NCBI RefSeq assembly: GCF_004104015.1
Contig: NZ_RYFV01000012.1
Location: forward strand, 20,329-84,328
Reading direction: 5' to 3'
Origin: Actinomyces oricola
GTDB taxonomy: Bacteria; Actinomycetota; Actinomycetes; Actinomycetales; Actinomycetaceae
DNA length: 64,000 nucleotides
Part shown: positions 5,086 through 63,873 of the stretch, piece after piece
Layout: each line of letters begins with the position of its first letter
Numbering within the stretch: the first letter of the stretch is position 1
Notes under the pieces: model-generated
Database searches by the model: none
Seen by the model: only the letters and a program-made list of their open reading frames with translations
What the model was told of the DNA's origin: nothing
Program-made: the position numbers and the translations under genes

Positions 5086-5964
5086 ATGACCAGTCGCGGT
5101 GTCCGCGCGACCGGCACCAGATCCACGACCCTGGTGTCGCTGGTGTCGCTGGTCGTGATAGCGGCCCTCGTCGGATGGGGCGTGCACAGGCAGGCCTGCT
5201 ACACACAGGCGCTTCGCCTGGCAGAGGCCGGGTGGACCGATGAGGCATATGGGATCCTCAGCGGGCTCGGTGGCTACCGCGACTCCGCGCAGCGGGCGGC
5301 GGAGCTGGTCGCTGACGACCCGGCGCTGCCGTACCGCACGGCCCAGAAGGACGACACGGTCCTCCTGGGCACCTACGAGCAGGATGGGGACCTGTCCAAC
5401 GGCGCCGAGCCCATCCGGTGGATAGTCCTTGACAGGATCGAGGACCAACTGCTCCTGCTCGCCGCCGACTGCCTGGACAGCCGCCCCTACCACCGCACCC
5501 CCTTCGAGGCCGTCACGTGGGAGACCAGTGACCTGCGCGCGTGGCTGAACGGTGAGTTCCTGCGGGCGGCGTTCACGCAGGACCAGCGGAGCATCATCGT
5601 GCCCACGCACAATGAGAACGACGACCAGACCGTGGTCGGGACGGAGGGTGGGGCGGCGACGACCGACCACGTGTTCGCGCTCAGCCAGACACAGGCCCTC
5701 ATCTACATGGGCGGTGAGGAGGACCGGTACTCCGTCGGCCGCGCCCCTGCGAGCGCGTACGCGACGAGAGGGCGGCTGTATGTCGATCCGGACAGCGGCA
5801 CAGCGGACTGGTGGCTGCGCTCGCCGGGTACGTACGCCTACGCCGCGCAGTACGTCAGCGTCTCCGGGACACCCTCTGTTGCCGGGGCGTCCGCGGACGT
5901 GGAGTTCGCGGTGCGCCCCGCCCTGTGGCTGAGCGTCGCCGAAGCGGAGAGAAACCGGCAGTGA
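5086..5964 (+). CDS. DUF6273 domain protein with N-terminal membrane anchor
   Basis: The 292-residue protein has one N-terminal hydrophobic anchor (about residues 16-33) and an extracytoplasmic part. Around residues 45-70 is a short repeat-like helix pair (LAEAGWTDEAYGILSGLGGYRDS). The C-terminal two thirds form a DUF6273 domain with its hallmarks LRAWLNGEFLRAAFT, FALS, WWLRSPG and VRPALWL. This domain occurs in surface-exposed proteins of Firmicutes and actinomycetes; its biochemical role is unknown. The stop overlaps the next start (GTGA), so it is translationally coupled to the first permease. Confidence 0.75.
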   Translation: MTSRGVRATGTRSTTLVSLVSLVVIAALVGWGVHRQACYTQALRLAEAGWTDEAYGILSGLGGYRDSAQRAAELVADDPALPYRTAQKDDTVLLGTYEQDGDLSNGAEPIRWIVLDRIEDQLLLLAADCLDSRPYHRTPFEAVTWETSDLRAWLNGEFLRAAFTQDQRSIIVPTHNENDDQTVVGTEGGAATTDHVFALSQTQALIYMGGEEDRYSVGRAPASAYATRGRLYVDPDSGTADWWLRSPGTYAYAAQYVSVSGTPSVAGASADVEFAVRPALWLSVAEAERNRQ

Positions 5965-10108: not shown

Positions 10109-11802
10109 AGGCCGAGGTCCTCCAGAATGGGCAGCTCGGCGCGCACAGCGGTGCGAGCTTCCTCGGCGGTGCCGGCGTTAATGGCAATCTCGGCCAGGCG
10201 CTTGGCCTCATCAAGGGTCACGGACTTCATAACCGCGTCCACGTCGGGCAGGGCGCGGGCGGTCATGGACAGGCTGGCCACCCCCAGGCCCACCAGGACC
10301 ACGGCCAGAGCCGGATCGGCGGCGGCCTCACCGCACACGCCCACCGGGCGGCCCTTGGGGGCGGCGCCGTCGCAGGCCTGCTTGATCAGGCGCAGCACGG
10401 CCGGCTGCCACGCAGTGGACAGATCCGCCAGGGAGGAGAGCAGCCGGTCGGCGGCCATGACGTACTGGGTGAGGTCGTTGGTGCCAATGGACGCGAAGTC
10501 CGCGTGCTCGAAGAGCTTGTCCGACATGAGGGCGGCCGAGGGGACCTCGATCATCATGCCCGCGGTCTTCAGGCCGTAGGAGCGGGCCTTCTCAGTGAAG
10601 GCGAGCGCCTCATCCTTGGTGGAGATCATTGGGGCCATGACCCATACCTTGGCGTTGGTCTCGGCCTCGGCCTTGGCCAGGGCCTCGAGCTGGTGCTCCA
10701 GGACCTCGGGGTCGCGGCGGGTGGTGCGGTAGGCGCGCACGCCCAGGGCGGGGTTGGCCTCGGTGGCGTCGGTGAGGAAGGGCAGAGGCTTGTCGGCTCC
10801 TGCGTCCAGGGTGCGCACCACAACCTTCTTGCCGGGGAAGGCCTCCAGCACACCGCGGTAAGCCTCGACCTGATCCTCGACGCTGGGCTCCTCCGGCTGG
10901 TCCAGGAAGCAGAACTCGGTGCGGAACAGGCCCACACCCATGGCATTGGCCTCGGCGGCGGAACGGGCGCCGGCGGCGTCGCCGACATTGGCGAGCAGCT
11001 GGACCTCGTGGCCGTCCTTGGTGGCGCCGTCGCCGTTGAAGACGCGTACTCGCTGGGCGAGCTCGCGGGCCCGGCGCAGAGCATCCTCGCTCGGGTTGAC
11101 GGTGATCAGGCCCTTGGTGCCGTCCACCAGGACAATGTCGCCGTCGTGGAGCTGGTCGGTGACCTTGTTCCCAGTGCCGACGATTGCGGGCATGCCCAGC
11201 GCGCGGGCGAGGATCGCGGTGTGGGAGGTGGGACCGCCCTCGGAGGTGATGAAGGCGACGACCTTCTCGGGGTCCAGCAGGGCGGTGTCCGCCGGGGCGA
11301 GGTCCTCGGCCACCAGAACGAAGGGCTCGGGCAGGCGCGGGATGCCGGGCATGGGAGCGTCGGTGAGGACCGCGACAATGCGGTCGCGCACGTCGGCGAC
11401 GTCTCGGGTGCGCTCAGCCATGTAGCCGCCAAGGGACTCCAGCATCGAAGCCAGGGTGCCGGCGGCCTCCCAGACTGCGCGCTCGGGGACGAGGCGGCGC
11501 TCACGGACCATGGCCTGGGCCGACGAAGTCAGCGTGGGGTCTGCGGCCATCTGGGCCGTGGTCTCCAGAAGCGTGCGGCCCTCGCCCTTGGCCTCAGCCG
11601 CTGAGAGCACGAGGCCCTTCTTGACGGTCTGCGCGGCAGCGGCGATGCGCTCACACTCCTTCTCGATGTCGCGGCTGGCATCAAGACTGGCGATCTCGGG
11701 CTCGCTGATACCGGGGGCCATGCGGGCGACCGGACCGGCGACAAGGCCGGGGCTGACCCCGATGCCGGTCAGCGAAGTGGGATTGGCGTCGGACGGGACC
11801 AT
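10105..11802 (-). CDS. ptsI: PTS enzyme I (phosphoenolpyruvate-protein phosphotransferase)
   Basis: The 565-residue cytoplasmic enzyme transfers phosphate from PEP to HPr. The phospho-histidine motif GGPTSHTAILAR places the active His near residue 194. The PEP-binding barrel has the LFRTEF, ANPALGVRAYR, MAPMIS, IGTNDLTQY and VGVCGEAA motifs, the last with the catalytic Cys. The frame stays open about 210 codons upstream, but the ATG at 11802 has a GAGGAG ribosome site and gives the normal enzyme I length. HPr is not encoded in the window. Confidence 0.95.
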   Translation of the reverse strand: MVPSDANPTSLTGIGVSPGLVAGPVARMAPGISEPEIASLDASRDIEKECERIAAAAQTVKKGLVLSAAEAKGEGRTLLETTAQMAADPTLTSSAQAMVRERRLVPERAVWEAAGTLASMLESLGGYMAERTRDVADVRDRIVAVLTDAPMPGIPRLPEPFVLVAEDLAPADTALLDPEKVVAFITSEGGPTSHTAILARALGMPAIVGTGNKVTDQLHDGDIVLVDGTKGLITVNPSEDALRRARELAQRVRVFNGDGATKDGHEVQLLANVGDAAGARSAAEANAMGVGLFRTEFCFLDQPEEPSVEDQVEAYRGVLEAFPGKKVVVRTLDAGADKPLPFLTDATEANPALGVRAYRTTRRDPEVLEHQLEALAKAEAETNAKVWVMAPMISTKDEALAFTEKARSYGLKTAGMMIEVPSAALMSDKLFEHADFASIGTNDLTQYVMAADRLLSSLADLSTAWQPAVLRLIKQACDGAAPKGRPVGVCGEAAADPALAVVLVGLGVASLSMTARALPDVDAVMKSVTLDEAKRLAEIAINAGTAEEARTAVRAELPILEDLGL

Positions 11803-41768: not shown

Positions 41769-41842
41769 CGCGGGGTGGAGCAGTTCGGTAGCTCGCCGGG
41801 CTCATAACCCGGAGGTCGCAGGTTCGAATCCTGCCCCCGCCA
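41769..41842 (+). tRNA. tRNA-Met (initiator, anticodon CAT)
   Basis: The 74-nt gene folds into a full cloverleaf with anticodon loop CTCATAA. Initiator hallmarks are the mismatched first acceptor pair (C1 opposite C72) and three G-C pairs (GGG/CCC) next to the anticodon loop. CCA is not encoded. The 3' part from 41806 belongs to the 42-bp att core, so the gene was rebuilt by the integrated element. Confidence 0.95.
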
Positions 41843-42173
41843 CGAGACCGGGGGCCCCGGCACCATCAGGTGCCGGGGCCTTCCGCGTTCCCGGCACGTA
41901 GGGCGCTGGCGTGAAACCTGCCTGCGCGCTGTAAGACGGCATGAGCGAGTCGACGTTGACCCCAAGAGCCTCAGCGGTTGCATACAGATCGGCCAGGCTC
42001 CATCCCACCTGCCCTCGGAGCTTGAGGGAGATCGACGGACCGGACATACCGATGCGCCGCCCAAGCTCTGCGCGAGTAATGCCCTGGTGAAACATCACCT
42101 GGTTGATCGTCATACCAAGCGCCGCGTCGGCGCTCAGTGTGCCAGGAGGGGTGAGGAGCCGTTCGTTCATCAT
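41802..42173 (-). CDS. XRE-family transcriptional regulator ending inside the tRNA gene
   Basis: The 123-residue protein has a central XRE helix-turn-helix (GITRAELGRRIGMSGPSISLKLRG) and a dimerisation-type helix after it. The last 14 residues (LVAGAGFEPATSGL) are translated from the antisense strand of the tRNA, and the stop codon lies in its anticodon loop. This tail is an effect of where the frame runs, not a domain. The gene is the first of the element and divergent from the excisionase-like gene, so it is a candidate repressor of the element. Confidence 0.75.
   Translation of the reverse strand: MMNERLLTPPGTLSADAALGMTINQVMFHQGITRAELGRRIGMSGPSISLKLRGQVGWSLADLYATAEALGVNVDSLMPSYSAQAGFTPAPYVPGTRKAPAPDGAGAPGLVAGAGFEPATSGL
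41806..41847. other. attL (42-bp att core inside tRNA-fMet)
   Basis: These 42 bases cover the 3' half of the tRNA from the anticodon loop to five bases past A73. They are identical to 63557-63598. Outside the repeats the sequences differ at once. Confidence 0.92.
41853..41880 (+). terminator. Terminator of the tRNA gene, supplied by the element
   Basis: A perfect 12-bp stem (41853-41864 with 41869-41880) has loop ATCA, 10 nt after the tRNA. It lies inside the element. A related hairpin follows the right att site. Confidence 0.8.
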
Positions 42174-44809: not shown

Positions 44810-45502
44810 TTAGGGGTGGTGGGTGTGGATCTGGGTGATGAGGTTGAGGGGGTCGACGTGGTGGGTCTCGGGGATCCATGGGGTCTCGGCGCTGGCTTGG
44901 ATGCTGTGCCAGAAGATGATGCCGTCGACGGGGTCGGGGTCTGGGGGGTTGTCCTCGTTGATCTGTTCGGCCATCGACATGTAGAGCGTGCGGGCTTGGG
45001 TGAGAGTTGTGGTGTCGTGGTCGACGATGGGGCTGGACCAGATGTCGTCGGGGCCGTTGGGGTCGTCTCCGTCGAGGGTGACGAGCCACAGGTTGCGTGA
45101 TGCGAGGTCGAGGTCGGGGGTGATCGGGGCCGTGGTGTTCGGGTGGTCTCCGATGATGGTGGGTCTGGTGTGGGTTTTCATCTGCTGGTGCGCGATGGCC
45201 AGGAGTTGGGACTGGGGGGTGTGATCGGCTCGAACCCATGGGGTTTCGATGATGGCGGTGAGGCGGTACCAGAAGGTGGCGCACTGCTTGGGGATCATGA
45301 CGGCGATGTCGGCGAGGCGGGTGTAGAGGTCGGTCGCGTCATCGGGGATGGGTTGGAGGAGGCGATGGAACTCGGTGCGGGCGGCGCCGTGGCGGGCTTG
45401 GGTGAGGGGGCAGTAGGCGGTGGTGCTCGGGTGGGGTCCGTGGGTGACTGCCCAGCTGTGGTGAATCGTGGCGACGCTGCCGACTGATTCGTCCCCGAGC
45501 AT
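44810..45502 (-). CDS. Uncharacterised protein with an internal duplication (possible cargo)
   Basis: The 230-residue protein reads against all neighbouring genes and starts behind a clear AAGGAG. I do not recognise a family. Two halves repeat a pattern: LTQAR, a helical spacer, then FW-x7-ETPW (CATFWYRLTAIIETPWV and IIFWHSIQASAETPWIP). It is acidic and rich in His, Thr, Pro and Trp, with no signal peptide or membrane helix. Its opposite direction within the transfer region suggests an independently regulated accessory gene. Confidence 0.6.
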   Translation of the reverse strand: MLGDESVGSVATIHHSWAVTHGPHPSTTAYCPLTQARHGAARTEFHRLLQPIPDDATDLYTRLADIAVMIPKQCATFWYRLTAIIETPWVRADHTPQSQLLAIAHQQMKTHTRPTIIGDHPNTTAPITPDLDLASRNLWLVTLDGDDPNGPDDIWSSPIVDHDTTTLTQARTLYMSMAEQINEDNPPDPDPVDGIIFWHSIQASAETPWIPETHHVDPLNLITQIHTHHP

Positions 45503-45626: not shown

Positions 45627-46196
45627 ATGACGATGGTGAATCCGTGGCTGGATCTGGATGAGGATGCGGGTGCGGGCTTGGAGGAGCCCGGGCGGGCGGG
45701 TTTGGAGGAGCCCGGGGTGCGGGTGCGTTCGTGGTTGCCGGTGGCTGAGGTTCCTGAGGTTGATGATGGGTTGCCGTTGGTCGAGGTGGCTGAGGGGCGT
45801 GTGTGGGTGGTTGGGGCTCATGGGGGTGCGGGGACGAGCACGGTGGCGTTGGTTTCGGGTGTGGCTGAGGCGGGCACGGGCTGGCCGGTGCCGGCTAAGG
45901 GTGTGTCCAGGGTGTGGATTGTGGCGCGCACGAATCATGCGGGGATGCGTGCGGCGCAAAGTGCTGCGGTGCAGTGGGCTGGTGGTGGTGTGCCCGGGGT
46001 GGACTTGGCGGGTGTGGTGTGGGTCGCCGATGCGCCTGGGCGTCTGCCACGAGTCCTGCGCGAGGACAAGGCGCTGATTTCGGGGGCTTTCCCGTCGAGC
46101 CTGATGGTTCCCTGGGTGGGGGCGTGGCGTGAGGGTGGGGTGCAGACCTCGTCGATTCCGAAGCGGGCGCTAAGAATTCTTAGCGCAATTCAATAG
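45627..46196 (+). CDS. MinD-like small protein with deviant P-loop, element-encoded
   Basis: The 189-residue protein starts at ATG 45627 behind GGGAGG. A short duplicated stretch near residue 14 (GLEEPGRAGLEEPG) is followed by a central VWVVGAHGGAGTSTVALVS, which resembles the P-loop of ParA/MinD proteins but lacks the Lys of GK(S/T). It may correspond to DUF6668-type proteins of actinobacterial conjugative elements; I am not certain. It immediately precedes the type IV secretion genes. Confidence 0.6.
   Translation: MTMVNPWLDLDEDAGAGLEEPGRAGLEEPGVRVRSWLPVAEVPEVDDGLPLVEVAEGRVWVVGAHGGAGTSTVALVSGVAEAGTGWPVPAKGVSRVWIVARTNHAGMRAAQSAAVQWAGGGVPGVDLAGVVWVADAPGRLPRVLREDKALISGAFPSSLMVPWVGAWREGGVQTSSIPKRALRILSAIQ
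46167..46186. promoter_or_regulatory. Perfect 20-nt palindrome before the type IV secretion genes
   Basis: GCGCTAAGAATTCTTAGCGC overlaps the end of the preceding gene and lies 49 nt before the VirB2-like start. Its half-site GCGCTAAG resembles GTGCTAAG of the palindrome at 56701-56720, suggesting an operator of a common regulator. Confidence 0.5.
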
Positions 46197-46553: not shown

Positions 46554-47300
46554 ATGAGCTCGAATAGTGGGCCGTTAGCGGAGTTGTTCAAGAGTCGGGG
46601 ATTCATAGCGGGTCTCGTGTTTGTCGTCCTCGTCGTGGGTATGGGGGTGTGGATCGTCTTTGATCCAAGAGCGTCGGACGGCGGGGGCGCCCGTGCTGGT
46701 GGTCAGCAGGGGACCCAAGAGTCCGTGGAGTTGGCTACCGAGTCAACGGCGCCTGAATCGGTGTCGGAGTGCGGCCTGGATGCCGGTGATCAGTCCATTC
46801 CTACTGGGCCGTTGCCTATGAAGTCGGTCAGGGTCGGTCAGACGGTCACGGCGCCGGTGGTTGAGGGTGTTGGTCCGGGTGTTATTGAGGATGGTGAGGT
46901 GAGTCATTGTTTTGCTCATTCGCCAACGGGTGCGGTTGTTGCGGCCGTGAATTTCATGAGGTGGTTCTCGGCGCGGGAAAAGCTTCCGGACGTGATCACG
47001 GCCCTCATGGTCCCCGGGTCTGATCGGGATCGGTTGGCGTCTCAGGTTGAGGTGGGGTGGGACGGGTCGGTGTCCTCTCCGTTTGCGATTATGGGTTACA
47101 AGGTCGAGGTCAGGAGCAGTGACGAGGTTCTGGTCACGGTCCTGACGTCGAAATCGGTTGATGTTCTCCAACTCGTGTCGTGGCCGCTGGTCATGGTGTG
47201 GGAATCTGGGGACTGGAAGGTGGAGACTCCTGCGAATGATTCGTGGGGCGAACAAGCAGAGACGTCTACGGACGCTTTTACAGCCTGGGTAGTCCGATAA
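46554..47300 (+). CDS. VirB8-like conjugal transfer protein
   Basis: The 248-residue bitopic membrane protein has one helix at about residues 18-34 and an extracytoplasmic domain. The segment from about residue 125 (GAVVAAVNFMRWFS...) to the end resembles the NTF2-like fold of VirB8/TcpC-type scaffold proteins, but only by its helix-strand pattern. It starts two nt after the preceding stop, and its stop overlaps the next start (TAATG). Confidence 0.65.
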   Translation: MSSNSGPLAELFKSRGFIAGLVFVVLVVGMGVWIVFDPRASDGGGARAGGQQGTQESVELATESTAPESVSECGLDAGDQSIPTGPLPMKSVRVGQTVTAPVVEGVGPGVIEDGEVSHCFAHSPTGAVVAAVNFMRWFSAREKLPDVITALMVPGSDRDRLASQVEVGWDGSVSSPFAIMGYKVEVRSSDEVLVTVLTSKSVDVLQLVSWPLVMVWESGDWKVETPANDSWGEQAETSTDAFTAWVVR

Positions 47301-48607
47301 TGTCGGATTGTTGGTTTTGGCAAGTTGAGTGCAAAGCCGAAGAGACTGCTGAGAAGGTGGCCGAGAACATTGTCGCGATGTGGGGGAGGTCGACCCTTGA
47401 GGCGTTGGACAAGGCGTTAGCGAAGGTTGGCACCTTCTGGGTGGACATGGAAACCCCGGATGTGTCGTCGGAGTCGTCGGCAACAGCTTATGTCGTTGAT
47501 TCGACCGAATGGATATCCGGCGTGCTTCTTATCGGGTCGATCATGGTTGCCAGCATTTACGTGATGTGGAATATGCGCGGTGAGGAGATCCGCAAAATAG
47601 TGGGCGGTGTTCTGCGCATGATCATTATCAGTGGTCTTGCGGCCACTGTGACACAGTTAGCGATTAACATTTCGGATGGTTTGAGTACGTGGTTCCTTAC
47701 CGAGGCCGTTGATGACATGAACGGTAGTTTCGCCACGAAGCTGCTGGTGATCACGAGCGTGTCTCCGACTGGGGTCGGGTGGCTGACGATCATCCTTGGT
47801 GGGATTTGCGGGATTATTGCGAACCTCATCCAGATGGGGTTGATGTTTGTCCGGTCGGCGATGCTGGTGTTGATCACCGGTATTATTCCTTTGGCGAGTG
47901 CGGCGGCGCTCACTGACTGGGGGAAGGAGTGGCTATCGAAGATCATCGGTTGGACCGTGGCGTTCGCGCTCATGAAACCGGCGGCGGCGATTATTTATGG
48001 GGTCGCGATTAAATTAGTGACCTCGAACTCGATCACGGCAATGGATGATCTGGGTAGTTTCATCCAGGGAATTATTTTGATGGTGATGGCGGCCATGGCG
48101 TTGCCGGCCTTGGTGAAGTTCGTCGTGCCTGCGGCTGGCGCGGTTGCGTCGGGGTCGGGCGCTGCAGTGCTGGCTGGTGGAGCCGGCGCGGTGGCGACCG
48201 GTGCGGTGCATGTTACTCGCAGCGGTGGATCGGGAGGGTCCTCGGGGCGGGGATCGTCGGGCTCGTCAGGCGACGACGGGGACAGTGGACCGACTGGGGC
48301 GAGGGGCCGGCCCGGCGCCGGTGGTAGTTCAGCGGATGCCTCATCGGGTGCTTCTGGTACTGCAAGAGGCGCTTCGGGCGCGTCGAGTGCGGGTGCGTCG
48401 GGTGCGGCTGGCGCGGGCGGTGGTGGCGCTTCGGGCGCTTCGAGTGCGGGTGCGTCGGGTGCGGCTGGCGGGGGTGTGGCTGGGGGCGCTGCCATGGTGG
48501 TGATGGCCGGGTTGCAGGTGGCTCAGAAGGGGGCGGATGTGGTTGTGGACACGACCGAGGAAGCCACCGGTGAAAGTGCGTCGGGTGCCGGGGAGGTAGC
48601 CAGATGA
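47300..48607 (+). CDS. VirB6/TrbL-like polytopic membrane protein
   Basis: The 435-residue protein has six or so transmembrane helices between residues about 70 and 275, as in VirB6/TrbL channel components. A long Gly/Ser/Ala-rich tail (about 290-410) follows. The tail contains a near-exact 43-bp tandem duplication. The gene overlaps both neighbours by one and four bases. Part of its tail sequence has been copied into the MinD-like gene at 57454-57507. Confidence 0.8.
   Translation: MSDCWFWQVECKAEETAEKVAENIVAMWGRSTLEALDKALAKVGTFWVDMETPDVSSESSATAYVVDSTEWISGVLLIGSIMVASIYVMWNMRGEEIRKIVGGVLRMIIISGLAATVTQLAINISDGLSTWFLTEAVDDMNGSFATKLLVITSVSPTGVGWLTIILGGICGIIANLIQMGLMFVRSAMLVLITGIIPLASAAALTDWGKEWLSKIIGWTVAFALMKPAAAIIYGVAIKLVTSNSITAMDDLGSFIQGIILMVMAAMALPALVKFVVPAAGAVASGSGAAVLAGGAGAVATGAVHVTRSGGSGGSSGRGSSGSSGDDGDSGPTGARGRPGAGGSSADASSGASGTARGASGASSAGASGAAGAGGGGASGASSAGASGAAGGGVAGGAAMVVMAGLQVAQKGADVVVDTTEEATGESASGAGEVAR
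48371..48470 (+). repeat. 43-bp direct repeat in the VirB6-like tail
   Basis: Copies at 48371-48413 and 48428-48470 differ at one base (period 57 bp) and encode GASGASSAGASGAAG-like sequence. The second copy ends inside the 54-bp segment shared with the MinD-like gene. Confidence 0.8.
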
Positions 48608-53248: not shown

Positions 53249-53983
53249 ATGAGTGAACATGATGAAGTGACGCCAGCGGTTGCCCGTGAGGCGCGCATGG
53301 CTTTCCAAGTTGCAATGCAGATCGGTCGCTTCTTCGCTGAGAAACGCCGCCAGCAACTCGACAATGCGCGACGTGATTCACTTGCGCAGGCTCGACGGGT
53401 CCAAGAAACCATCAGACAACAGCGCATAATGGCCAGCGCCGCCCTACGCACCGGTCTGGATGACAAGTTCTGGGACAAAGCCAAACCCCAGGACGCGGCG
53501 TTCATCCACGGACTCGCCACCCGGTTCGAGGACATCGACCCCTTGGCGCGTCAGGTGGCCCAGCGATGCCGAAAGGAGGCGCTGGCGCGATGGGGCACAG
53601 AACTGACCTCGCTGACGCCCGTTCACAGGCGCGACGTGCCCGCGAGCATGATCGCCGAGGTCTCCCCGACACTGACCGATGAGGAGAACAAGCAAGCGAA
53701 TCAAGCTCTCGACAACGAGCCACGAGAGATGATGCCGGAGCCCGCCGAACCGCAAGTATCGTCCAATACTAATTGGGATTCGACGGCTGCTCGCGATGCG
53801 TGGGCGAAACAGAAGCTGAAAGAGGGTCATGATCCCCAAGCAGTGCGCTCGGCGGTGGCTGGCGACCGTGCATTGCACGAGCCGGCGCACCGGGCCAGCG
53901 CCCCGGCGAGGCCAGCGGCCAAGGTTAAGAGCCCCGAGAAGAGTTCACCCCACCAATCGAGGACTCAAACACGGCGCGCGTGA
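53249..53983 (+). CDS. Uncharacterised helical protein at the end of the transfer operon
   Basis: The 244-residue, highly charged protein starts behind GAAAGAAAC. Residues 10-75 form a long Arg/Gln-rich helix of possible coiled-coil type (FAEKRRQQLDNARRDSLAQARRVQETIRQQ). The C-terminal third is Pro/Ala-rich and disordered. No family is recognised. It follows VirD4 by 28 nt and may be an accessory DNA-processing factor. Confidence 0.6.
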   Translation: MSEHDEVTPAVAREARMAFQVAMQIGRFFAEKRRQQLDNARRDSLAQARRVQETIRQQRIMASAALRTGLDDKFWDKAKPQDAAFIHGLATRFEDIDPLARQVAQRCRKEALARWGTELTSLTPVHRRDVPASMIAEVSPTLTDEENKQANQALDNEPREMMPEPAEPQVSSNTNWDSTAARDAWAKQKLKEGHDPQAVRSAVAGDRALHEPAHRASAPARPAAKVKSPEKSSPHQSRTQTRRA

Positions 53984-54019: not shown

Positions 54020-54454
54020 CGGTGGCGCGTCGCAGGGAAGAATCCCGTCGGGGTGCTCGGGCCACTGGTTGTGCCCCTTGGACGGGGAGCACGATCGGAA
54101 TGGTCCTCGGGGACTGACAAGCTGATTCATGATCGGGTCAGCGTAGCTCACCAGCCACTGGGCGGCCGCTAACGGTCCGTTGTTGGCGTGCATGTGCTCC
54201 CATGCCTGCCACAGACTCATGAGACGGAAATGGGCCTCAGGGTGGTTCCACCACTGAGGGCACCAGCACCCGCTGGTGGGACTCACCCCTCTCTCATAAA
54301 TCACACAGATGAAGTTCTCAACGAATTTATCGAGTGTTGGGAACTGGAGCTCGGGAATCGGCGCATCGTCGACCGTGTCTGCTTCATTCGTCTCGCTCAT
54401 ACTCTGCTCGTGCTCCGTGGGCGCACGATCTCGGCGAGCGAGCAGGATGGTCAT
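53996..54454 (-). CDS. DUF4913 domain protein
   Basis: The 152-residue protein has the DUF4913 pattern WCPQWWNHPEAHFRLMSLWQAWEH...WLVSYADPIMNQLVSPRGPF, a family seen in actinobacterial conjugative elements beside relaxase genes. Its function is unknown; the spaced Trp, His and Cys residues are suggestive of a metal site. The ATG at 54454 overlaps the relaxase stop (ATGA), which supports this start over the ATG at 54400. Confidence 0.78.
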   Translation of the reverse strand: MTILLARRDRAPTEHEQSMSETNEADTVDDAPIPELQFPTLDKFVENFICVIYERGVSPTSGCWCPQWWNHPEAHFRLMSLWQAWEHMHANNGPLAAAQWLVSYADPIMNQLVSPRGPFRSCSPSKGHNQWPEHPDGILPCDAPPKGLFTPR

Positions 54455-56205
54455 CTGCGCCGGCTGTTCTTCTTCACCACGCCGTCACCATGCCGGTGTG
54501 GTGGTGTGGTCTCCGGCTGGGGGCTGGGCGCCCGGCTGGCGCGCTGCGGCGCGGACGGCGCCCCGACGATCTCGGTGATACGACGGATGCGGTCGGCGTG
54601 TGCTTGGCTGACCCCGCTCACCGGTGGGCCGCCGGCAATCTGTGGCGAGCGCTGACCAGCTGCCGCGTCCTGCTCCTGCCGGTGTGGTGGTGTGGTCTCC
54701 GGCTGGGGGTCGGGCGCCCGGCCGGCGCGCTGCGGCGCGGACGGCGCCCCGACGGCTGCGACGACATGGGTGCTGGAGGGTGCGTTGCTCACGGCTTCTA
54801 AAGCTGTGGTCGCTTCGGCGAGCAGTTGCTGGGCGGTCCTGGCCTGCTGTGCGGCATGGTAAAGATCGGCCAACGACCGCAGTAGCGCTAGGGATTGGAC
54901 GGCCAGGACCGCAGGATTGGCCTGGCGATTCATCGTGGCTGACATGGCCACCGACGCCGCCATGGCCACCGCGCCCGGAACCGGCGCCACCGGTGCCGGA
55001 CGATGATGGGTTTGCGCGGCCCGACCCGCGGTGAGGGCCGCCCGCTCCAGGACTCTACGGGCTTTGGGATCACGTTCGGCAAGCGCCTGCGCGGACAGCA
55101 ATCCGGCCACATCACGGGTCGCGTCAGCGAGCACGACCGGATCGGTCGCGTCAATACCGCCAAGCGTATCCGCATAAGTGTTCAAGGCCCGCGCCGTGGC
55201 CACGACCTGGGAACGATTGATGCCGGTACGGCGCGGCACGCCCCGCCACGCATCACGCCACGCGTCGACGGCCTGCTGTGCCGAGTGCGGCGTGTCCGGC
55301 CATCTGGCGCGCAAACGCTGAAGTGTCAAGTCACGGGCGACGCGCCCACCCCCGTACCACTGGGCCTGCCCGTCAGGCCTGTGCAGCGCGACCGAGTAAC
55401 CGACCACGACGTCGGTCCGCCCGCGCGCGAACCGGGGCCTGGCACGCACACCCACCCCGCGCAAACGCAGCACGAAATCGCGTTCGCTCCTCGCCGCGGT
55501 CGCAGCGGCTCGCACACGATGCTCCAACACCTGACGGTCGGTGCGCTCCTCGCCGCGACGCGCACTGACCCGCAGATCAGCAGTGGAATCGGCGCGCGCA
55601 CCACGGGAATGCTCGCGAGCCTCGATGACTGTTAGGTTGTGCCGGTGCTCGATCGCATTGACGGCTCGACCGGCACGTCTCTGGTCCTGCCAGTTCGACC
55701 ACTTCGTCCCGTCCTCGCGCACGATATTGGCCACGATGTGGACATGATCCCCACCGTTCTTAGATCGTCCGTGGTGCACGGCCACCCATCGGCACGGCGC
55801 CTTCCCGTCAACGCCGGTGAACCCCATGGATTCCATGAACTCGGCGGTGATCTGCCGCCACGCATCATCCGACAAAGGTCCGTCCTGCGGTGAGAGCGAC
55901 AACGAGCAATGCCACACATGGTTGGGGGCATCTGCCTTACTGATCACGCGCCGCCCGGCGTCGTGATCAAACCCGCGCCGCGGGCCGGTCGGTCGAGTGC
56001 CAGTTTCGGTCATGAACTGGTCGACGAAACGAGCCAACTCATATCCTTGGGAAGCCGACAGCTCCTCCCAGGATCCCCATCGGCGCATGATCACATCGGA
56101 ACCGGACACGACGTGTGGTGAGGCGTGCTCATTCGCTCGGCCCGGACCAACGAGATACAACACCAATCCCGTGGTGTTCCCCCCGTCAACGATTGCCGCG
56201 ATCAT
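54451..56205 (-). CDS. Relaxase / mobilization nuclease
   Basis: The 584-residue protein has a relaxase domain in its first 210 residues. The metal-binding triad is visible in HHGRSKNGGDHVHIVANIV (H144/H145, H154, H156), and Y17 near the N-terminus is the best candidate nucleophile. The C-terminal half is Ala-rich and helical, with a disordered tail that repeats GAPSAPQRAxRAPxPQPETTPPHR twice. It nicks oriT and pilots the strand. ATGA overlaps link it to MobC and DUF4913. Confidence 0.87.
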   Translation of the reverse strand: MIAAIVDGGNTTGLVLYLVGPGRANEHASPHVVSGSDVIMRRWGSWEELSASQGYELARFVDQFMTETGTRPTGPRRGFDHDAGRRVISKADAPNHVWHCSLSLSPQDGPLSDDAWRQITAEFMESMGFTGVDGKAPCRWVAVHHGRSKNGGDHVHIVANIVREDGTKWSNWQDQRRAGRAVNAIEHRHNLTVIEAREHSRGARADSTADLRVSARRGEERTDRQVLEHRVRAAATAARSERDFVLRLRGVGVRARPRFARGRTDVVVGYSVALHRPDGQAQWYGGGRVARDLTLQRLRARWPDTPHSAQQAVDAWRDAWRGVPRRTGINRSQVVATARALNTYADTLGGIDATDPVVLADATRDVAGLLSAQALAERDPKARRVLERAALTAGRAAQTHHRPAPVAPVPGAVAMAASVAMSATMNRQANPAVLAVQSLALLRSLADLYHAAQQARTAQQLLAEATTALEAVSNAPSSTHVVAAVGAPSAPQRAGRAPDPQPETTPPHRQEQDAAAGQRSPQIAGGPPVSGVSQAHADRIRRITEIVGAPSAPQRASRAPSPQPETTPPHRHGDGVVKKNSRRR

Positions 56206-56615
56206 CGGCGCACACTCGCCAAGATCTCGTTAATGTCGTCATGCAGCTGGTGGACCTGCGCCACGACATCGTCGAAGTCGAAGGGAACCTCACTGATCGT
56301 GTTGGCGTGACGCGCAACCTGGTTCAGGTTCGTCGCGACTCCCGCGAGTTGACGACGATAGTAGCGCAACAGCGCGACCACCTCACCCAGTCGGCCAGCA
56401 TCAACCCCGTCCGCGCTCACCGGCCGTAGCGCACCATCGACCAAGAACTTCGCCATGGACTCTCCCGAGACCTGCGCGCGAAGCTCAAGAAGCTCGCGAT
56501 CCGCCGGCGATAAATACACCGTCAACCTCGACCGCCGCTGCCCACCCCGCAGACGCGGAGAGCGGCGTCGATCATGACGCGCCGCAATATTGCGCTCACT
56601 ACTCGACATCGTCAC
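56202..56615 (-). CDS. mobC: MobC-like relaxosome accessory protein
   Basis: The 137-residue protein has a basic N-terminus, a ribbon-helix-helix-like segment (SRLTVYLSPADRELLELRAQVSGESMAKFLVDGAL) and the MobC block LRYYRRQLAGVATNLNQVARHAN. It helps the relaxase to bind and open oriT. It overlaps the relaxase start by four bases and is the first gene of the mobilization operon. Confidence 0.85.
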   Translation of the reverse strand: MTMSSSERNIAARHDRRRSPRLRGGQRRSRLTVYLSPADRELLELRAQVSGESMAKFLVDGALRPVSADGVDAGRLGEVVALLRYYRRQLAGVATNLNQVARHANTISEVPFDFDDVVAQVHQLHDDINEILASVRR

Positions 56616-56921
56616 GACTCAACCTCCCGCCAGCGCAGCGACCCGTAGGGACCACACGACAAGTGTGCCCCGGCGGACGATCATCGTCCACCGGAAATCG
56701 ACTTAGCACAGGTGCTAAGTCCCATCTTGCTCTGTGTAACGGTTCCCTTCGCGTCGATGCGTGCCAGCGGCTGGGTGTGAGGTTCGGTTCGGTCCGGGAT
56801 GCGCGCCCGTAGCGCGCATCTATCGCAACTGACCACACCGGCAGGTGGGTTGTGCGCGCACACCGCACGTAGGTGGTGACGCGCCCGGTGGGCGCAACCC
56901 CTACAGCAAAGGTAAGGAAAC
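56616..56921. other. Candidate oriT region with inverted repeats
   Basis: This 306-bp gene-free spacer lies upstream of mobC. It contains the dyad ACTTAGCACAGGTGCTAAGT (56701-56720) and a stem GATGCGCG/CGCGCATC (56798-56805 with 56813-56820), and several GTGCGCGCAC-like repeats. This position and structure are usual for a transfer origin and for the promoters of the divergent operons. Confidence 0.55.
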
Positions 56922-57154: not shown

Positions 57155-58591
57155 GTGCTGCAAGCAACAATCAATCTGTCCGCTGCGGGAAGCGGATCAA
57201 TGAGCGTCGGGGACGTCATGCGGCCGGTACGCGGAACCGACCTGAACGATGCGCGCGACAAAGTCAAGAACATTCTCATCAACCGCGCCGCCGATCTGGA
57301 CGAGACCATCATCGCAACGTGCACCGACCCCGACGGCGACTTCACCATCGCCATCAACCCGGACGGAACAATCTCAGCCGCCGAACCAATGGCCGGGTCG
57401 GACGAGATCGAGGACCAGACCCACGACCCGCACGCCACCACACCCACCAGATCCAACCCGGCCATCACCACCATGGCAGCGCCCCCAGCCACACCCCCGC
57501 CAGCCGCGACGGCGGACACATCCACCCCCGCTGGGCCTCCAAGCTCGCCTCCCAGGTCCTCCCACTCGGCTGGACCCTCCACTCCCTTCGCCACAGGGTC
57601 GCCAGCATCTCCTGAGCCAGAGATCACCGAGACACCCCACGCACACACCCAAACCCGACGCGAACGCCAAGCAGCACTCCGCCAACAAACACTTCTGGAA
57701 GACATCGCCAATGAAGCACCCGCGAAAAACGGAGTGCGCGGCATCCTCAACACCCTCGGGCTTCACCTGCGGCCCTCAACACACGAGCGCGCCGAACGCG
57801 CCGACATCGCTCTAGTATCCCAGCACTGGCCACGACCACGAACCATCGCAGTAGTCAACGGTAAAGGCGGCGCCGGGAAAACCCCCTCAACAATCCTTCT
57901 CGCCGCGATCCTGGCCCGTAACAGCGGCACAGGAGTCGTCGCCTGGGACAACAACCCCAGCAGGGGAACCCTGGGCTGGCGAACCCAGACAGGACCTCAC
58001 GACAACTCCGTGATCGATCTCCTCCCCGAAATTGATCACCTCTTATCACCGACGGCACGCGCCGCCGAGATCGCACGCTTCACCCACCACCAACGCGACG
58101 ACCGCTTCGACGTGCTCCGATCACGCCCCGAAGTCCTGGCAGCATCAGGAGACGGAGACGCGGCGACGTTCCTGCGCGTCCACGACGTGCTGGAACGCTA
58201 CTACCGCGTCATCGTCATCGACTCAGGCAACGACGAAACAACACTGTCCTGGCGAGCCATGATCGCCAAGGCCGACGCCCTGGTCGTCCCAACCATCACC
58301 CGGCCCGAACACGCTGAATCCGCCAGACTCCTGCTCGACGAACTCAGCCGCGACGACCAGCACTCGGCACAACTCGCCGACCAGGCACTGGTCATCGTCT
58401 CTCAAGGCTCCAAAGCCGAACCGGGCCCGCACGAACTCGTCAAGACCTTCTCCTCTATCGCCCGCGCGGCCGTCGGCATCCCCTACGACCCCGCAATGGC
58501 CGGACGACCACTGACCCTCGACTCACTAGCGCCCATCACCCGCCGCGCCTGGCTCGCAGCCGCGGCCGCGCTCGCTCAAACACTCGGATAA
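57155..58591 (+). CDS. MinD/ParA-like P-loop ATPase with chimeric Pro-rich linker
   Basis: The 478-residue protein has a small N-terminal domain (residues 1 to about 85), a Pro/Thr/Ser-rich linker (about 90-170) and a C-terminal MinD/ParA-like ATPase with Walker A VVNGKGGAGKT (about 234-244), VIVIDSGNDE as the Walker B-like strand and VVPTITRPEHAESARLL. Thr-Pro after the P-loop (KTPST) replaces the usual KT(T/S). Such ATPases occur in actinobacterial transfer and secretion loci, where they may position the machine. The linker is encoded by inverted copies of two other genes of the element. Confidence 0.75.
   Translation: MLQATINLSAAGSGSMSVGDVMRPVRGTDLNDARDKVKNILINRAADLDETIIATCTDPDGDFTIAINPDGTISAAEPMAGSDEIEDQTHDPHATTPTRSNPAITTMAAPPATPPPAATADTSTPAGPPSSPPRSSHSAGPSTPFATGSPASPEPEITETPHAHTQTRRERQAALRQQTLLEDIANEAPAKNGVRGILNTLGLHLRPSTHERAERADIALVSQHWPRPRTIAVVNGKGGAGKTPSTILLAAILARNSGTGVVAWDNNPSRGTLGWRTQTGPHDNSVIDLLPEIDHLLSPTARAAEIARFTHHQRDDRFDVLRSRPEVLAASGDGDAATFLRVHDVLERYYRVIVIDSGNDETTLSWRAMIAKADALVVPTITRPEHAESARLLLDELSRDDQHSAQLADQALVIVSQGSKAEPGPHELVKTFSSIARAAVGIPYDPAMAGRPLTLDSLAPITRRAWLAAAAALAQTLG
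57454..57597 (+). repeat. Inverted copies of VirB6-like and integrase gene segments
   Basis: Bases 57454-57507 are the exact reverse complement of 48461-48514 (54 bp, VirB6-like tail). Bases 57505-57597 are the exact reverse complement of 60243-60335 (93 bp, integrase). The two copies overlap by the three bases CGC. They are read here in a frame different from the integrase. Confidence 0.92.
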
Positions 58592-59698: not shown

Positions 59699-60056
59699 GA
59701 CCCTCCAAGCACGTCACCACCTACGTGCTCCGTGCGCGCACCCCCACCGCCGCAGACATCATGAAGACCAGCAACGCTGGCAACGCCAGCAACAACGACA
59801 ATGCCGCTAACGCTGACGGTGGTGCTGTCAGTGGGGGTGCGTGATCTGGCAAGCGAGGTGTGCGATGGCGGTGACCCACCACCCGAGGTCAGCCTTGCCT
59901 CTTTACTTGGTTTTGTTCCTGACCACGACGGTCGGTGAGCACGACCCAGCTCAGCCGGCCGGGTGCTAGGCGGCAGCGGCAGGTAACCGGTTACGGGCAC
60001 CGCCCGCCGTGCCCGGCCGGGCCCTACGGACCCCAGCCACCGGCACCAACCCGGGG
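59699..60056. repeat. Gene-free region with centromere-like repeat A
   Basis: No gene is seen in these 358 bp. Bases 59768-59822 contain repeated CCAGCAACG/AACGCCAGC units and the 14-nt core AATGCCGCTAACGC (59800-59813), which recurs at 61273-61286 and 63437-63450 as its reverse complement. The promoter of the NlpC gene should also lie here. Confidence 0.6.
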
Positions 60057-60926
60057 TCAGCTCGCCCAGCGCCCCCGTGGCTCTGGGATTGTCGCGGTGG
60101 CGGGATGAGCGGCGGTGATGGCAGCGCGCATGGCGCTGAGGGCCGGGGCGGTGTAGCGCTGGGTGGTGGCTACGGAGGAGTGGCCCAAGAGGCGCTGGAT
60201 GGCCAGAATGTCGCGGTCGGCCTGGTAGGCGACAGTGGCGAACCTGTGGCGAAGGGAGTGGAGGGTCCAGCCGAGTGGGAGGACCTGGGAGGCGAGCTTG
60301 GAGGCCCAGCGGGGGTGGATGTGTCCGCCGTCGCGTGAGGGGAAGGCCCAGCCCTCAGGGCTGGCCTGGGTGCGCCGCCGGATGAGGGAGGCGAGCTGGT
60401 CGTCTAAGGGCAGGACTCGGTCGTGGCCGCCTTTGGCACGGACGATCAGAGTGGCGCCCATGGGGCCGTCGGCCAGGTCGTCGCGGTGGACGCGGGTGAT
60501 CTCGGCGCAGCGCAGCCCCAGGCAGCCAGCCAGGGTCAGGATCGCCCTGGTGCGCTCGTCTGCCCGGGCTAGGGCCTGGGCGAAGACATGCTCTGGGGTG
60601 GGGCGAGGTGGGGGTGTGGGCCGGCTGATCGAGGGCAGGACGGCCGCGGGTGACGGATCGGCCCCCATGGCGGCGTAGAACTCTTTGATGGAGACGTAGT
60701 AGGCGTGGCGGGTTTCCGGCGCCCAGTCCTGGTTGCCGGCCCATTCCAGTAGGGCGTTGGGGGTGATGGCGTGGGGCGGGGCGCCGATGGTGCGGGCCAG
60801 GCGGCGGATGTGGCGGGCACGGGTGGCGATAGTGGCCGGGCGCATGCCGGCGGCGCGCATGGTGGTCTCGAAGTGCTCCAAGGGCCCCAACCAGGGCACG
60901 GGGACGGGGATGGGGAGTGTGCTCAT
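60057..60926 (-). CDS. int: Tyrosine recombinase / integrase of the element
   Basis: The 289-residue phage-type integrase has a SAM-like N-terminal domain (about 15-90) and a complete catalytic set: R139 in LGLRCAEITR, K165 in AKGGHDR, H223 and R226 in LHSLRHRF, H249 in LLGHSS and nucleophile Y258 in TTQRYT. It should catalyse recombination between attP and the tRNA-fMet site. The ATG at 60938 is an alternative start four codons upstream. It lies 2.6 kb from attR, with partition genes in between. Confidence 0.92.
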   Translation of the reverse strand: MSTLPIPVPVPWLGPLEHFETTMRAAGMRPATIATRARHIRRLARTIGAPPHAITPNALLEWAGNQDWAPETRHAYYVSIKEFYAAMGADPSPAAVLPSISRPTPPPRPTPEHVFAQALARADERTRAILTLAGCLGLRCAEITRVHRDDLADGPMGATLIVRAKGGHDRVLPLDDQLASLIRRRTQASPEGWAFPSRDGGHIHPRWASKLASQVLPLGWTLHSLRHRFATVAYQADRDILAIQRLLGHSSVATTQRYTAPALSAMRAAITAAHPATATIPEPRGRWAS

Positions 60927-61013
60927 AGCACGCAGCATCCCAAGTCGCCAGCCGGCGTGGGTCTAGAGGCGGGGCCAGGGCACGGCGCTCATGTTTCCTC
61001 CTTGGTGATTAGG

Positions 61014-63556: not shown

Positions 63557-63598
63557 AACCCGGAGGTCGCAGGTTCGAATCCTGCCCCCGCCACGAGA
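63557..63598. other. attR (42-bp att core)
   Basis: This segment is identical to 41806-41847 and contains only the 3' part of the tRNA. The 5' part of the tRNA is absent, so this is the right junction of the element. Confidence 0.92.
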
Positions 63599-63602
63599 GC
63601 GG

Positions 63603-63632
63603 AGTCCCCGGCACCAGCAAGTGCCGGGGACT
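63603..63632. terminator. Hairpin downstream of attR
   Basis: A 12-bp stem (63603-63614 with 63621-63632) stands in the same position relative to the att core as the tRNA terminator at the left end. This supports common origin of the two flanks. Confidence 0.6.
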
Positions 63633-63873
63633 TCTGCGTTCCCGGCACGTACGGGGCGGGGGTCCATGAGCCATCAGCGGCACGGGTGGGCGCGAAGGCG
63701 TCAAGAGTCAGCCCGAAGAGCGACGCCATGATTGAGGGTTATAGGACAGAACGTGTTGTTTTAGGTGGCGTGTCGTGGGGTGTTAGTGGGGTCGTCCTGC
63801 CCAGCCTCGGCGGTTCCATAGGCCTTCTTCGGGGGTGGGGGTGGTGCCCCATCCGGTGGGGTGTGGGCTGGTG

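Follow-up and report, generated by a model that had tools for sequence, protein, structure and literature searches.

A probable templated insertion in the linker of a MinD-like ATPase, copied from two genes of the same conjugative-type element

Part of the linker of a MinD/ParA-like ATPase, encoded within an integrated element of Actinomyces oricola, is likely a well-resolved templated insertion, through which 48 codons of new linker were drawn from two other genes of that element. The insertion looks real and seems to be recent. Should it be real, a single mutation turned sense and antisense scraps of other genes into new protein sequence, in a clean natural case whose sources, inner junction and reading frames are all legible. 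It would also suggest, in a form open to testing, how disordered linkers can turn over quickly, and nicks made during DNA transfer may then cause such mutations outside the laboratory. The evidence concerns one event, and any function of the new linker would be hypothetical.

The window, meaning the whole 64-kb stretch of DNA that was analysed, contains in its last third an integrated conjugative-type element of approximately 21.8 kb that is bounded by att-like direct repeats. Its genes encode a TrbL/VirB6-like protein, an SCO6880-family protein, a VirB4-like ATPase (a weak call, with NCBIfam hits below cut-offs), a VirD4-like coupling protein, a DUF4913 protein, a relaxase, MobC, the MinD-like ATPase, a transglycosylase/NlpC-P60 protein and a tyrosine integrase. 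The combination of an integrase, a relaxase with MobC, a VirD4-type protein, a VirB4-like protein and att-like repeats at a tRNA gene would place it among the integrative conjugative or mobilizable elements. The features required for the following are:

41769–41843, plus strand: tRNA-Met at the left end of the element
41806–41903, plus strand: left att-like repeat, overlapping the 3′ part of tRNA-Met
47243–48607, plus strand: TrbL/VirB6-like gene (precomputed PF19590 and names of homologues)
54451–56205, minus strand: relaxase (PF03432)
56202–56615, minus strand: MobC/NikA-like accessory protein (PF05713)
57155–58591, plus strand: MinD/ParA-like ATPase of the conjugation gene cluster, 478 aa (PF13614 and PF01656 above cut-off)
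60057–60938, minus strand: tyrosine recombinase/integrase, 293 aa (Pfam PF00589)
63557–63655, plus strand: right att-like repeat, 42 bp exact and 92% identical over 99 bp

The linker DNA and its two sources

The inserted DNA consists of two pieces that abut without intervening sequence and have 3 bp in common:

57454–57507, plus strand: piece A, exact reverse complement of 48461–48514 (54/54)
57505–57507, plus strand: CGC, the 3-bp junction overlap common to pieces A and B
57505–57597, plus strand: piece B, exact reverse complement of 60243–60335 (93/93)
48461–48514, plus strand: source of piece A, in the C-terminal part of the TrbL/VirB6-like gene
60236–60335, minus strand: source of piece B, integrase catalytic region including HSLRHRF

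Both identities and the CGC overlap had been claimed in a preliminary description of this DNA, which proposed alignment of the three loci within the window as a check; the alignment bore this out, both identities being exact and the overlap being present at 57505–57507. The match had also been called perfect, which stands up to 57597, but one mismatch lies just beyond, at 57598 (the copy has G where the source, in the same orientation, has T). The match of piece B then continues to 57604, corresponding to 60236 in the source (99/100), and its right edge is slightly softer than first stated. A comparison with the organism's own draft genome (2,930,686 bases in 78 contigs) gave no match to the linker DNA beyond the linker itself and its two sources. 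A partial match of 57436–57473 to 45983–46019 (32/38) was dropped as C/A-rich low complexity.

The inverted matches of the linker are beyond chance. When the 64-kb window was simulated 200 times with a third-order Markov model, non-local inverted matches reached 20 bp at most. In 200 rough triplet shuffles of the genes of the element the maximum was 18 bp; these did not amount to a strict codon shuffle (several gene intervals were out of frame, DNA between genes kept its original order and 600 end bases were trimmed).

Piece A is antisense to its VirB6-like source gene, whereas piece B has the same sense as the integrase, whose gene lies on the minus strand, and is read one frame off. Along the strand that reads the MinD-like gene, VirB6 antisense (48514 to 48461) is followed by integrase sense (60335 to 60243). 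It had been stated that the integrase-derived part is read in another frame, and this is indeed the case: the base at 60335 opens a codon in the integrase, and its counterpart at 57505 closes one in the MinD-like gene (codon positions 1 and 3, respectively). Both pieces are inverted copies, but the VirB6 piece alone is antisense to its gene. We rejected the formation of a single cDNA from two mRNAs by reverse transcription, since both pieces should then be antisense, or both sense, on one strand.

When 144 bp are taken out, the reading frame stays open and the protein has 430 aa, close to the 436 aa of the Actinomyces howellii homologue. Removal of 151 bp breaks the frame, and the event thus most simply added 144 bp (48 codons). 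As the copies are exact and both sources are still in place, the proposal that parts of two of the element's own genes were copied within it is upheld.

Regarding the direction of copying, the integrase source appears clearly native: source B lies within GWAFPSRDGGHIHPRWASKLASQVLPLGWTLHSLRHRFATVAY, with a gap-free alignment to the integrase of A. succiniciruminis (L004; 63% identical overall). For the VirB6 tail, moderate evidence points to a native source. Source A encodes AAGGGVAGGAAMVVMAGL, which aligns in 8/8 relatives with 6–11 of the 18 residues identical, the best identity (11/18) being found in two relatives (P0122 and P0133). The VirB6-like tail is Ala/Gly-rich and of low complexity, and the direction is for this reason less sure for piece A than for piece B. 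Pfam scans in our analysis gave no family for the TrbL/VirB6-like gene; its homologues begin with MSDCWFWQ, and these starts suggest that the ATG at 47300 is its probable start. We also observed in its Gly/Ala/Ser-rich tail a 50-bp direct repeat (96%; 48368–48417 and 48425–48474) that overlaps the start of source A.

Of 2259 homologues found, the 120 best were compared with the insert peptide: 119 have no 6-residue word in common with it, and the remaining one, P0100, shares three overlapping Pro-rich words. In 110 of these 120 homologues the ATPase motif is located beyond residue 140, and a linker is therefore present in them. When the linker region alone was used as a database query, nothing was returned at E 0.001 among 1028 candidates, not even the window's own protein; this result says little, and low-complexity sequence may score poorly. 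By these comparisons the linker is most likely the recipient and both sources are probably native, in agreement with the preliminary description: the integrase source is kept in A. succiniciruminis, the VirB6 source can be aligned in all eight relatives at 6–11 of 18 residues, and the insert peptide is found in no homologue checked. The event had been called recent on account of the perfect match, and this holds relative to the split from known relatives.

The MinD-like ATPase and its predicted disordered linker

The MinD-like protein comprises an N-terminal beta-rich domain (residues ~1–76), a disordered linker (~77–166) and then the ATPase domain, with a KGGAGKT motif that we take to be a deviant Walker A. 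In the best of five AlphaFold2 models built from an alignment of 14 sequences (mean pLDDT 72.7, against 45–62 for the other four), the N-terminal domain is confident, residues 79–163 are almost wholly of pLDDT <50, and the ATPase domain matches ParA and MinD structures in the PDB. The insert corresponds to residues 100–148, all but residue 132 of which fall in stretches of pLDDT <50 (79–131 and 133–163), and it is predicted to sit in the disordered linker. The added stretch would lengthen a putative spacer between the N-terminal domain and the ATPase.

The composition of the insert is ~86% P/A/S/T/G/Q/E and 6% hydrophobic. We defined as linker-like a PASTGQE content of at least 0.8 with hydrophobics of at most 0.1, and applied this threshold to 48-codon scraps of the genes of the element, taken in six frames and overlapping windows with the sources included. 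It was reached by 68 of the 9486 sampled scraps, i.e. by 68 of the 4398 open ones. The idea that any scrap would do as a linker was rejected on these counts, and they suggest that selection may have kept a scrap that the protein could bear. The earlier proposal that a catalytic sequence was re-read as a linker accords well with an insert that is linker-like in composition and lies within the predicted disordered part.

The linker measures 90 aa here and 48 aa in the closest homologue, which is also the nearest named one (A. howellii, 436 aa). Across the 12 full-length relatives that were compared, linkers range from 48 to 132 aa, and because they vary to this extent without such copies where tested, the shorter linker of A. 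howellii constitutes weak evidence. It had been proposed to compare the MinD-like gene in related elements, where absence of the insert between conserved flanks would show the acquisition. The support from this comparison is at the protein level, the A. howellii linker being 42 aa shorter.

These data also bear on an assembly or library chimera, in which case the junctions would be absent from the cell. The draft genome is in 78 contigs, and the database VirB6 protein is from an 84,328-base contig, a length equal to the contig position at which the window ends, yet the 100% database match to the MinD-like protein covers a 285-aa C-terminal part only and is listed with a 2,538-base contig. Both observations would be in line with a chimera. 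The 285-aa record may reflect a gene-calling effect of the odd linker, whose out-of-frame sequence a gene finder could have disliked, a contig break at repeats or the sign of a problem. A chimera would, however, need three joins, a return to both flanks of one gene and 48 stop-free codons, and its product happens to fit the linker composition reached by 68 of 4398 open scraps, while its removal leaves a plausible ancestor length of 430 aa. We consequently regard a chimera as very unlikely.

Proposed template switching near a predicted oriT

It is probable, in our view, that the middle of the linker was created by a single templated insertion, with a polymerase jumping between the VirB6-like and integrase templates of the same element. 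Synthesis would have started from a 3′ end in the linker, at a fork that had stalled or broken. After a first switch to the opposite strand near 48514 and the copying of 54 bases, a jump to 60335, with a match of 3 bp, would have been followed by the copying of ~93 bases and by a return to the original locus, which makes three template switches in all. One template strand, the plus strand of the element, would account for all three joins. Most simply, 144 bp (48 codons) would have been added by these steps, with the frame kept open and the linker lengthened. Two marks of templated insertion by template switching (MMBIR/FoSTeS type) are found here, namely an exact copy with its source left in place and more than one template in one insert. 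Template switching with microhomology, as put forward in the preliminary description, stands as the best mechanism but not as an established one, since overlaps of at least 3 bp occur at ~7% of random junctions (6.7% of random joins in the element); the 3-bp overlap at the inner join is a hint only.

The nearest rival is fragment capture, by which two short DNA pieces would have been joined at a double-strand break by end joining (Ku/LigD or alternative). Unlinked fragments with little or no microhomology would fit equally well, and the expected signature would be nearly the same. The same strand polarity of both pieces is, however, not required by capture, which would produce it with an even chance alone, and we consider capture unlikely.

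Build-up in steps would involve at least two separate insertions, or a gene-conversion copy, in an element prone to copying inverted scraps. It finds some support in a third exact inverted pair:

45279–45301, plus strand: arm 1 of the third exact inverted pair, 23 bp, partner 53826–53848
53826–53848, plus strand: arm 2, inside a conserved conjugation gene

This 23-bp pair joins two ORFs of the element, has no flanking similarity and exceeds all non-local matches in 200 simulations. Since the gene around the 53826 side is conserved, the copy may be the 45279 side. The pair hints at more than one such copying in the element, or at one event with more products. The two large pieces of the linker nevertheless abut with shared 3 bp and are exact over 54 + 93 bp, which fits one event, and a stepwise origin is in our estimate highly improbable.

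For the single templated insertion, a likely trigger would be a relaxase nick at a predicted oriT located 0.7–0.8 kb away, a link that we infer:

56630–56732, no strand assigned: predicted oriT-like element, non-coding, 103 bp, upstream of mobC

The predicted oriT is 83% identical in A. succiniciruminis (L004) and 80% identical in A. oris (L006). Its core is common to Cryobacterium and Glutamicibacter plasmids, and 33 columns are invariant in five aligned sequences. The insert starts 722 bp from it. By simple arithmetic, a random point in the 21.8-kb element would be this close to the predicted oriT in about 1 in 13 cases, and the proximity is suggestive only.

The nicked relaxase complex is a covalent DNA-protein crosslink. 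Covalent DNA-protein crosslinks stimulate template switching in Escherichia coli, according to one report (PMC6357072). In another (PMC3161906), some rearrangements of an E. coli F′ plasmid are read as paired inverted template switches with 3–30 bp microhomology, and F′ amplification requires TraI, the enzyme that nicks oriT. The F′ system, attributed there to MMBIR or long-distance template switching, resembles the present case, as reconstructed above, in its paired inverted switches and its conjugative element, and perhaps in its short junction microhomology. It differs in producing kilobase-scale duplications and amplifications under selection, whereas here ~150 bp of coding sequence would have entered a protein linker in a natural element, and in that amplification is TraI-dependent, whereas nick dependence is only proposed here (PMC3161906). 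Inverted-repeat template switching in yeast is also similar, as a coding change results from opposite-strand copying; the yeast case is local, with short repeat arms and at most five neighbouring residues affected, whereas here two distant sources yielded 48 codons (PMC8604942). A much broader proposition would be that conjugative elements mutate themselves in transfer: relaxase nicks at oriT would break forks, switching on the exposed single strand would write inverted scraps of the element's own genes into the oriT-proximal gene, the disordered linkers of high-GC bacteria would act as a sink, and linkers would be made by single jumps and not by slow drift. We consider this general scheme speculative and quite unlikely.

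The class of mutation is known, and it is the product that is unusual, with two distant inverted sources and a catalytic region re-read as linker, on a mobile element and near a predicted oriT. In eukaryotes, end joining by polymerase theta leaves short inserts copied from elsewhere, and more than one template can be joined. To our knowledge, bacteria have no polymerase theta of this end-joining kind; the two situations are alike in their short copied insert and differ in the enzymes. Diversity-generating retroelements copy one stretch into a protein gene with adenine changes. They are alike in copying into a protein gene, but here ordinary genes served as sources and were copied in inverted orientation; such a retroelement was rejected, as scattered adenine changes are lacking and 54 + 93 bases are exact. 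The edge mismatch at 57598 amounts to a T-to-G change for the copied strand, or A-to-C for its complement. Among the matches listed in the open-access literature, judged by titles and abstract beginnings, there was no account of a linker in a bacterial coding sequence that had been put together from inverted copies of two distant sites.

Parallels in relatives and other repeats

The same MinD-like ATPase occurs among conjugation genes on plasmids of Cutibacterium, Arthrobacter, Cryobacterium, Miniimonas and others, and in Actinomyces loci. The MinD/ParA-like ATPases of actinobacterial plasmids and elements (pTZC1 and others) have the same layout of N-terminal domain, linker and ATPase, and in most of these plasmids and elements the gene is likewise found near genes for a relaxase, a VirD4-like protein, an SCO6880 protein and a cell-wall hydrolase. 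Their linkers differ, where tested, in having no copied piece of this kind, with one 21-bp in-frame exception. In a test of each linker against the rest of its own locus, performed for six of 11 relatives (L004, L005, L008, L009, L010 and L015), the longest exact match was 12–14 bp in five of the six and 21 bp in pTZC1 (L009). The pTZC1 match (5915–5935 and 10939–10959) connects the MinD-like linker with the VirB4-like gene and encodes HLPSRRE in frame in both; a shared peptide motif or chance would probably explain it equally well.

Twelve loci (L004–L015) were further scanned for exact repeats of at least 20 bp that are at least 300 bp apart. Among the matches listed, which for L015 comprised 6 of 18 direct repeats, none beyond the pTZC1 case fell in the MinD-like gene. 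Four Actinomyces loci (L004, L005, L006 and L008; 15–22 kb each) have no non-local exact repeat of at least 20 bp, as compared with three inverted pairs of at least 20 bp in this 21.8-kb element; L004–L008 are pieces of 15–22 kb, in which more distant sources would be missed. The Microbacterium locus has one 20-bp non-local repeat, upstream of its N-domain match. A search of viral contigs gave nothing, and one of plasmid DNA gave no record covering 80% of the MinD-like gene. The templated insert looks like a one-off, with no clear parallel in the relatives examined, and the present data do not support generality in relatives.

Several plasmids carry longer repeats elsewhere, outside the MinD-like gene. 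In Arthrobacter plasmids we noted an exact inverted repeat of 109–114 bp (L011, 21175 and 42049; L012, 8148 and 27528), one copy of which is near the mobC region. Within the element studied here, the C-terminal part of the relaxase contains a 78-bp direct repeat (96%; 54491–54568 and 54677–54754). Finally, an imperfect inverted repeat is found in intergenic DNA at 56839–56884 and 59709–59752 (46 columns at 85%, including an exact core of 17 bp), and it is perhaps a shared regulatory site.
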